64,000 nucleotides of DNA from Sphingobacteriales bacterium (GTDB taxonomy: Bacteria; Bacteroidota; Bacteroidia; Chitinophagales; CAIOSU01). The notes under the pieces are model-generated. The model made no database searches. It saw only the letters and a program-made list of their open reading frames with translations, and had not been told where the DNA came from. Position 1 is the stretch's first letter. Each line of letters begins with the position of its first letter. Shown here one piece after another: positions 4,601-43,038 of this stretch. The translations under genes were made by a program, and so were the position numbers. The DNA is taken from the NCBI GenBank assembly GCA_027483645.1, contig JAIXUD010000009.1, forward strand, positions 180,814 through 244,813, read 5' to 3'.

Positions 4601-4658
4601 CATCATCCCGCACCGCACCGACCACCCCCAACCCCTCCTTGAAAAAAGGAGGGGAGCT
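4601..4658 (-). repeat. CTCCCCTCC palindromic repeat, copy R1 (short form)
   Basis: On the minus strand it reads AGCTCCCCTCC...GGAGGGGTTGGGGGTGGTCGG. The inner spacer is shortened to a few bases compared with R2-R4. Its first 40 bases (4601-4640) match 5391-5430 of copy R4 at 39 of 40 positions, a direct repeat across the DUF559 gene. Confidence 0.8.
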
Positions 4659-4720
4659 TACATATTGCGTTTGAAATAAAACTCAATCCGTTACCCGTTT
4701 TGGTGCCGCTCAATAGAGCC

Positions 4721-4805
4721 GAAGCGCTGGCAGCTCCCCTCCTTAGCCTAGCCTTTTTTGAGCGTTTGGAAAAGGAGGGGTTGGGTGTGGTTGCACGCAA
4801 CACGG
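4721..4805 (+). repeat. CTCCCCTCC palindromic repeat, copy R2
   Basis: Plus orientation: GAAGCGCTGGCAGCTCCCCT, then a spacer with TTTTTTGAGCGTTTG, then AAGGAGGGGTTGGG and TGGTTGCACGCAACAC. CCCCTCCTT pairs with AAGGAGGGG. It shares its 5' flank GAAGCGCTGGCAGC with copy R3. Confidence 0.8.
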
Positions 4806-4856
4806 TAACATAACAACAAAGCTCAACATAATCATCCAGTGAGCGCCAAAAATGCG

Positions 4857-4940
4857 GAAGCGCTGGCAGCTCCCCTCCTTAGCCCGACCTTTTTGAGCGT
4901 TTGAAGAAGGAGGGGTTGGGGGTGGTTGCACGTAATGCGG
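4857..4940 (+). repeat. CTCCCCTCC palindromic repeat, copy R3
   Basis: Plus orientation, near-identical to R2 (same GAAGCGCTGGCAGC lead, CCCCTCCTT/AAGGAGGGG dyad, spacer with TTTTTGAGCGTTTG, tail GGGGGTGGTTGCACG). It is the copy closest upstream of the DUF559 gene, ending 70 bp before its ATG. Confidence 0.8.
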
Positions 4941-4989
4941 GCAGCAATTGATTGCAAAAATAATTAGCCAATAATTTGCTATTTAATTT

Positions 4990-5010
4990 AGTGTAAATTA
5001 TATTTACACT
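4990..5010. promoter_or_regulatory. Perfect 21-bp palindrome abutting the DUF559 start codon
   Basis: AGTGTAAAT and ATTTACACT are exact reverse complements around TAT, and the right arm ends at the base before ATG 5011. A weak -7 box (TAATTTAG, 4984-4991) overlaps its left end. The position suits an operator for a repressor or a translation-blocking hairpin; which of these is inference. Confidence 0.6.
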
Positions 5011-5373
5011 ATGACACAGCAAATACACAACCTAAAGCCATTGAAAGAATACCGAAGGGCTTTGAGAAGCAACGGTACGCCAGAAGAGGCGATGCTATGG
5101 AATGCACTACGCAACAGCCAACTAGAAGGTAAGAAGTTCCGGCGGCAACATAGCATCGGCAATTATATTGTCGACTTCTATTGCCCTAGCGAAAAGATTG
5201 TAATTGAACTGGACGGACAGCCACACTTTAATCCAGGTGCGCAAGCAAACGATTTCGAACGAGATGAATGGTTAAGGTCCCAACATTTCAGGGTGCTACG
5301 GTTTGAAAACTGCGAAGTAAGAAAAGATGTGAACAGGGTCATAGAGGCTATCCGGAAGGTGATATTTGAATAG
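5011..5373 (+). CDS. DUF559 domain endonuclease-like protein
   Basis: The 120-residue protein is a full-length member of the DUF559 family, which belongs to the PD-(D/E)XK/Vsr-like nuclease superfamily. Visible hallmarks are an N-terminal helical region (PEEAMLWNALRNSQL), then KFRRQHSIGNYIVDFYC with the candidate metal ligand Asp55, IELDGQPH with Glu66 and Asp68, and the C-terminal FRVLRFEN. All catalytic acids appear intact, so it is probably active. The family's biological role is not established. The gene stands alone, preceded by a perfect palindrome at its start codon. It is bracketed by palindromic repeats in opposite orientations (R2 and R3 upstream, R4 downstream), suggesting nuclease and repeats travel or act together. 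Domain call is firm; function is inference. Confidence 0.9.
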   Translation: MTQQIHNLKPLKEYRRALRSNGTPEEAMLWNALRNSQLEGKKFRRQHSIGNYIVDFYCPSEKIVIELDGQPHFNPGAQANDFERDEWLRSQHFRVLRFENCEVRKDVNRVIEAIRKVIFE

Positions 5374-5390
5374 GTTTCACCACCTTCAAA

Positions 5391-5470
5391 CATCATCCCG
5401 CACCGCACCGACCACCCCCAGCCCCTCCTTCTTCAAACGCTCAAAAAGGCTAGGCTAAGGAGGGGAGCTC
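5391..5470 (-). repeat. CTCCCCTCC palindromic repeat, copy R4
   Basis: Minus orientation copy starting 17 bp after the DUF559 stop. Its complement reads GAGCTCCCCTCCTTAGCCTA, a spacer with TTTTTGAGCGTTTGAAG, then AAGGAGGGGCTGGGGGTGG. With R3 it forms an inverted pair around the nuclease gene; with R1 it forms a direct repeat of 40 bp. From 5471 to 5735 I see no gene. Confidence 0.8.
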
Positions 5471-5735
5471 CGACTTCTCGGCTAGTTGGTTAATTTACTT
5501 CTCACTGTGAAAGGAAGCTTTAAATATCAACGCGGAAACAGGTTGATGTCGCGAACTTTACAGCTCCCCATCACTCTGCGAAAGTTACAATTCCGCAGCA
5601 CTGAAGACAAGAGGCTTTGCCTCATTTCACACCATGCACGTCACGCAATACCCTACCCCTACCCTACCCTCCAACTCTTTTCTGTTCCTTAGAAGTACGG
5701 TGACATTTCGGCCACTTTACCCTCACCCCACGCAC

Positions 5736-42961: not shown

Positions 42962-43038
42962 GGCAGCTCCCCTCCTTCGTGCGGCTTTTTTGCGCGTTTT
43001 TGGCCAAGGAGGGGTTGGGGGTGGTTAGCACGCAACAC
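42962..43038 (+). repeat. CTCCCCTCC palindromic repeat, solo copy R5
   Basis: GGCAGCTCCCCTCCTT, spacer with TTTTTTGCGCGTTTTTGG, then AAGGAGGGGTTGGGGGTGGT and a GCACGCAACAC tail. It is the same family and orientation as R2/R3 near the DUF559 gene 38 kb away, with no nuclease gene nearby. Confidence 0.8.

Follow-up and report, generated by a model that had tools for sequence, protein, structure and literature searches.

The window, by which we mean the whole 64-kb stretch of DNA that was analysed, carries on its plus strand a stand-alone DUF559 nuclease gene (5011-5373), the 120-aa product of which matches PF04480 (E=1.7e-35) and has a Vsr-like/EDxHD fold. Around this gene lie four palindromes of a type capable of forming triplexes. 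Upstream are R1, a short-loop element on the minus strand (4621-4656; CTCCCCTCC-TTTTTTC-AAGGAGGGG TT GGGGGTGG), R2, a long-loop element on the plus strand (4732-4792), and R3, also on the plus strand (4868-4928), whose tail is directed towards the gene. On the 3' side, R4 (5411-5469, minus strand) likewise points its tail towards the gene. R5 (42962-43038, plus strand) is a solo copy with no DUF559 gene near it. A scan of the whole window with a fuller motif returns exactly these five elements, R1-R4 all falling within ~400 bp of the DUF559 gene, which bears out an earlier, sequence-only reading that had counted four copies around the gene and one solo copy. Two further claims of that reading stand, that is, that R3 and R4 form an inverted pair around the gene (59 nt, 93% complementary) and that R1 and R4 share a 40-bp direct repeat with one mismatch. 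The copies of this repeat are the tail-side flanks of R1 (4601-4640) and R4 (5391-5430), and they are nested in a 51-bp match (92%). R1 and R2 make up a gene-free doublet, separated by 81 bp, in which both tails are directed away from the partner element (a tail-out pair), while R2 and R3 are tandem duplicates. A possible truncated half copy (AGCTCCCC, 5562-5569, plus strand), weak because it spans 8 bp only, sits at the place predicted for the plus-strand half of a second doublet. No gene other than DUF559 lies between R3 and R4 and there is no HUH transposase, as had been claimed; a composite HUH/RAYT unit was rejected because the cassette lacks any such gene. Genome-wide (4.27 Mb), the exact-stem pattern occurs 10 times and its reversed control 0 times.

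Read as a single strand, a window element consists of a pyrimidine arm (CCCCTCCTT), a loop, a purine arm (AAGGAGGGG), a short linker and a tail (GGGGTGG). This G-rich tail mirrors the purine arm, with G opposite G and T or A opposite A, so that the window elements combine a Y/R hairpin with an adjacent mirror third strand matching the R arm. As far as sequence can tell, the layout is that of an antiparallel intrastrand triplex of the BoxC/PIT/TM(ECO) class, with a predicted fold-back of the tail. The sequence-only reading had included both the palindrome and the G-rich tail in its motif, but had left the third-strand nature of the tail uninterpreted. When DNA hairpin energies were compared with those of shuffled sequences, R1 stood out (z=-3.3) and R2-R4 did not, the program used being one that ignores triplexes. 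The tails were also compared with their arms in a set of palindromes found near DUF559 genes, which have a G-rich side and were not selected for match (33 distinct arms, one count per element). A fraction of 0.949 of positions fit the element's own purine arm, versus 0.787 after permutation (z=9.5, 0/5000). Since tails fit their own arms better than permuted ones, arm and tail covary, which is what selection on a three-stranded fold would be expected to produce. This bears on whether the palindromes, which sit directly up- and downstream of the DUF559 gene, are simply its ordinary terminators or regulatory hairpins. They have no T-run, however, carry a covarying third-strand tail, are inverted on both sides of the gene and are enriched there over other intergenic regions (see below), and we find this explanation hardly credible. 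An Rfam search of the repeat gave no match, and a terminator or RNA family was rejected on that ground, together with the missing T-run and the inverted pairs.

The association of these repeats with DUF559 reaches far beyond the window. DUF559 loci were picked by protein, without regard to repeats (GTDB genomes gave 80 and a Bacteroidota survey 29, to which those of the window's genus were added), and the usable set comprised 100 stand-alone genes from many phyla. An inverted-repeat pair spans the gene with a score of at least 14 at 60 of the 100, as opposed to 25 of 1100 shifted positions on the same contigs (2.3%, p=1e-33), the flanking palindromes seen in the alignments being of CCCCTCC-, CCCTCTCC-, CCCCTCCCC- and CCCCCTTT-type. 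The triplex motif itself is present within 350 bp of 60% of the 100 solo genes, compared with 0.85% of 1175 control flanks and ~1% of shuffles, some 40% of solo genes having no motif by the detector used. When only intergenic stretches of the same contigs are considered, those with the motif number 78/162 beside DUF559 (48%) and 7/186 elsewhere (3.8%, p=9e-24). Chance is ruled out by these shifted, shuffled and intergenic-only controls. The repeat is thus very strongly enriched around DUF559 genes, relative both to other positions and to other intergenic regions, and the earlier statement that similar CTCCC/GGGAG repeats lie beside DUF559 genes in other bacteria proved right, the enrichment holding across phyla. 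Among longer proteins with a DUF559 domain (n=6), the motif is found on one side of the gene in 2 and on both sides in 0. A replication sample of 13 genes was made up of E. coli ycjD and genes for YcjD-related proteins on records from other phyla (hosts include Azospirillum, Sphingomonas, Sinorhizobium, Neisseria, Klebsiella, Photobacterium, Deinococcus and cyanobacteria). The motif lies near 10 of these 13 genes, and in 14/26 flanks versus 10/153 control flanks (p=4e-8). A DUF559 gene of N. gonorrhoeae (L231), for example, is bracketed by CCCTCTCCC-type palindromes. A phage element was set aside as a candidate, with only 17 viral-contig loci for the alignment and none for YcjD, and membership of a defence system, for which PADLOC matches were weak only, was rejected.

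On a tree of 59 DUF559 proteins, stem type needs 22 changes versus 29.9 when shuffled (0/200), and the CCCCTTT stem type clusters in one part of the tree although its hosts include Nitrospirota, Chlorobiota, Chloroflexota and Planctomycetota; stem type therefore goes with the protein rather than with the host. Across 296 Bacteroidota genomes, a strong DUF559 match is present in 19/22 genomes with the strict motif versus 107/274 without it (p=1.5e-5, in a test that ignores kinship), and is missing in three repeat-bearing genomes. These findings bear on the possibility that another machinery moves the repeats and that DUF559 has merely been captured between them. Some repeats do lie at a distance from any DUF559 gene, a few genomes have repeats but no DUF559, and the unit encodes no strand-transfer enzyme, all of which a passenger gene would explain; a passenger would not, however, be expected to accompany the repeats across many phyla, nor to have a tree that stem type tracks in preference to the host, and we regard a passenger role as very improbable.

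The same pattern is repeated within the window's own genome, whose stand-alone DUF559 genes number three, besides a single Vsr-like gene (C2:150127). The other two DUF559 genes (C1:391015 and C19:36717, with inverted-repeat scores of 23.5 and 28.5, respectively) show the same layout, but their flanking inverted repeat is another one, TGGCAGATACCCTC-TTGGGAGGGTCG...GGGGTGGGT, which by inspection may also be triplex-capable. The inverted pairs of this second family lie at 1610-1690 and 2100-2215 of L016 and at 1885-2000 and 2415-2535 of L017, and the loop of the second triplex may itself contain a hairpin. Beside the Vsr-like gene, neither repeat family nor any triplex feature was found. Copy numbers of the strict window-family motif across five genomes of the genus are 12, 13 and 7 where there is DUF559 and 1 and 2 where no DUF559 was found; other genera of the family have none, and the reversed control is zero throughout. 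The DUF559 gene of one relative (G002:C66) is bracketed by repeats like that of the window. A separate short repeat, approximately GTTTTGTCGTCCACGAAGTGAGTATTGGTGATGG, occurs right beside triplex doublets in the genus (L022 ~2050-2085 and ~2200-2240; L195 ~1430-1470).

Are these elements mobile? Sites with and without the repeat do exist between relatives, a comparison that the sequence-only reading had proposed. A doublet of G003 (C57:48979-49194) is missing in G005, where the left flank is 96% identical and the junction reads CCCCC on both sides, which could reflect insertion into a tail-like target or, equally well, a microhomology deletion; at another site, it is G005 that has a single element and G003 that lacks it. 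None of the occupied/empty comparisons revealed a clean insertion with target-site duplication. For the window cassette, no empty site was found because relatives match the groEL side and gene order beyond it differs. In E. coli K-12, ycjD has a BoxC/PIT element (...CCCTCGCCCCTCTGGGGAGAGGGTTAGGGTGAGGGG) ~165 bp downstream, and an apparent second, decayed BoxC is at its 3' end. The locus was rejected as a clean empty site, since the two strains lacking ycjD that were compared hold a different operon there. In these strains, the place upstream of fabI is taken by an operon that encodes an RND efflux system and a TetR regulator (L169, L172). At thiQ-yabI and ypfG-tkt, a minority of strains have BoxC, and the other alleles that were read carry REP/BIME-like sequence, hence no clean junction; BoxC and REP/BIME-like elements thus alternate at these two places between strains (L199, L200, L203-L208). 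BoxC is retained in most E. coli genomes even without the ycjD region, which, together with the three Bacteroidota genomes lacking a strong DUF559 match, indicates that repeat copies persist without the gene. That triplex motifs vary between strains was reported earlier, whether by insertion or deletion being posed as a question (Holder 2015, PMC4666352). Taken with the gene-free inverted doublets, the species-specific occupied sites suggest mobility.

What could the enzyme contribute? The AlphaFold2 model of the window protein (pLDDT 90) was matched best by Foldseek to the DUF559 protein 3HRL (1.8e-7), which is the solved structure of N. gonorrhoeae NGO0050, and to I-Bth0305I (3R3P, 8e-4), while Vsr (1VSR) gave a weak match. 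Residues that are invariant or near-invariant in DUF559 include E26, Q46, D55, E66, D68, H72 and D81. The 3R3P match and the near-invariance of E26, D55, E66, D68 and H72 place the protein within the EDxHD catalytic fold, in agreement with an earlier assignment of DUF559 to that family (PMC9403480), and the conserved residues are consistent with an EDxHD-type active site, in which their individual roles remain putative. With its 120 aa, the window protein has no separate DNA-binding domain.

This kinship raises the prospect that DUF559 is a homing enzyme, which would cut repeat copies and have its gene copied in by double-strand-break repair, the repeats being landing sites rather than cargo. 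The fold match to a homing endonuclease and the EDxHD assignment both speak for it, as does the first of two recurring layouts, '- gene +', in which the DUF559 gene lies inside a tail-out pair (13 loci). A homing event, however, divides one site and leaves its halves in direct orientation, and what is seen here is different, namely whole elements lying inverted to one another on the two sides of the gene: the nearest ones are oppositely oriented at 30/38 loci (p=2e-4). In the second recurring layout, '-+ gene -(+)', the gene lies between doublets, and this is the form seen in the window, that is, R1(-) R2(+) R3(+) gene R4(-), perhaps followed by the truncated plus half at 5562. Nor would homing account for gene-free doublets that are dispersed and have a constant gap. 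All seven gene-free pairs in the window's genus, R1/R2 included, are tail-out with 81-182 bp between elements, and in five gene-free doublets of S. meliloti the elements are exactly 50 bp apart. A DUF559 gene of S. meliloti lies between two doublets of this 50-bp-gap type, one of which is split by ISRm16, and in Sinorhizobium the gene is found within inverted repeat pairs with arms of up to 114 bp. We consider homing improbable. The ISRm16 insertion inside the doublet was seen at ~3529 and ~4810 of L234. The S. meliloti doublets (L234 2819-2946, CP090106.1; two palindromes, 126 bp) may be the known RIME intergenic mosaic elements. Two records from the plasmid collection, CP090106.1 and NZ_CP119142.1 (3.7 Mb and 2.2 Mb), resemble mislabelled chromosomes.

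The locus is probably an autonomous unit of a repeat system with two parts, which would work much as REPIN/RAYT does but use a metal-dependent nuclease where REPIN/RAYT has an HUH transposase. The sequence-only reading had proposed a REP/RAYT-like unit with a different enzyme, which is supported by the enrichment, the site polymorphism and the absence of an HUH transposase, but it had missed that the repeats belong to a known intrastrand-triplex class. In the mechanism that we propose, (i) the single-stranded palindrome would form a hairpin and its G-rich tail would fold back to supply the third strand of G*G.C and T/A*A.T triads, (ii) the DUF559 protein, a dedicated nuclease, would recognise its own folded version of the element, (iii) it would cut the element at its foot or tail during single-stranded phases such as those on the lagging-strand template, and (iv) these cuts, made at the ends of the gene cassette or of the gene-free inverted doublets, would allow host repair or replication to copy or move either of them to new intergenic sites. 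That a folded single strand is the substrate recognised is argued from the covariation of tail and stem, and that DUF559 is the dedicated nuclease of the repeats from association and co-evolution; recognition, cleavage, mobilisation and the strand involved are all inferred. Strand joining, which would have to be supplied by the host since a metal-dependent nuclease makes no covalent intermediate, is the weakest step of this mechanism.

Association and co-evolution would be predicted equally well if DUF559 were a policing or repair enzyme, cleaving or resolving stalled triplex hairpins and adjoining the repeats for regulation or linkage, while these spread by other means. Vsr, the distant relative detected by weak fold match, is indeed a repair nuclease, and triplex motifs have been tied to genome instability (Holder 2015, PMC4666352). 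Such an enzyme, however, would have little reason to lie, as a mobile unit would, inside inverted repeat pairs with the long arms found in Sinorhizobium, and one genome may hold several DUF559 genes with different repeats; a policing role is to our mind unlikely, although less so than homing.

The two-part system would, if true, have implications reaching well beyond one locus. The recurrence of the pairing, with matching repeat types, in many phyla and beside E. coli ycjD suggests that DUF559 is the missing partner that spreads BoxC/PIT triplex repeats, and a specific enzyme makes the origin of these long-known, unexplained repeats directly testable. It would give a function to a large uncharacterised family, including E. 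coli YcjD and NGO0050, and provide a natural example of selection for DNA triple-helix formation. More tentatively, and with slightly less than even confidence, stand-alone DUF559 proteins might represent a new class of mobility enzymes, that is, triplex-recognising nucleases driving selfish repeats (BoxC/PIT and relatives) bacteria-wide, in a form of dispersal that needs no transposase and in which a DNA triple helix is the structure recognised. No published link between DUF559 and palindromic/REP repeats, triplexes or YcjD was found, subscription papers and preprints lying outside the search.

How does this system compare with those already known? A strand-transfer transposase inside the unit, the trait of insertion sequences/MITEs, was not found in the window cassette. 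I-Bth0305I shares the catalytic fold with DUF559 (Foldseek E=8e-4), but it has an extended DNA-binding region and one long homing site, whereas the window has a 120-aa protein and dispersed short repeats, and its free-standing gene, intergenic and between palindromes, showed no intron/intein or homing-site context. Vsr is a mismatch endonuclease, and the Vsr-like gene of the window genome, unlike the DUF559 gene, goes without triplex-type repeats. The closest parallel in organisation is REP/REPIN with its RAYT (TnpA-REP), in which a single small nuclease gene also lies within inverted palindromes, gene-free inverted doublets and intergenic copies are dispersed, and enzyme type is matched to repeat type; inverted repeats at the gene, with solo copies and doublets elsewhere, are found here too. 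RAYT, however, is a Y1 HUH transposase while the window enzyme is a PD-(D/E)XK/EDxHD-like nuclease, the foot tag GTAG (or CGTC) of REP is absent in the window, where stem feet are AGCT/TTGGGGGTGG, and a third-strand tail sets the window repeats apart. In repeat architecture, it is BoxC/PIT/TM(ECO) that the window elements resemble, with Y-arm, loop, R-arm, ~3-nt linker and mirror G-rich third strand, and both kinds of repeat are intergenic, occur in inverted pairs and are polymorphic between strains. The loop limit of that class is 1-6 nt, and most window elements have longer loops. For the class itself, a triplex in solution was shown for the E. coli motif only, no DUF gene was mentioned, no mobility function was found near the motifs and their origin was left open (Holder 2015, PMC4666352). 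BoxC/PIT/TM repeats were thus described with no partner gene, whereas for the repeats of the window type, the partner that we propose is DUF559.
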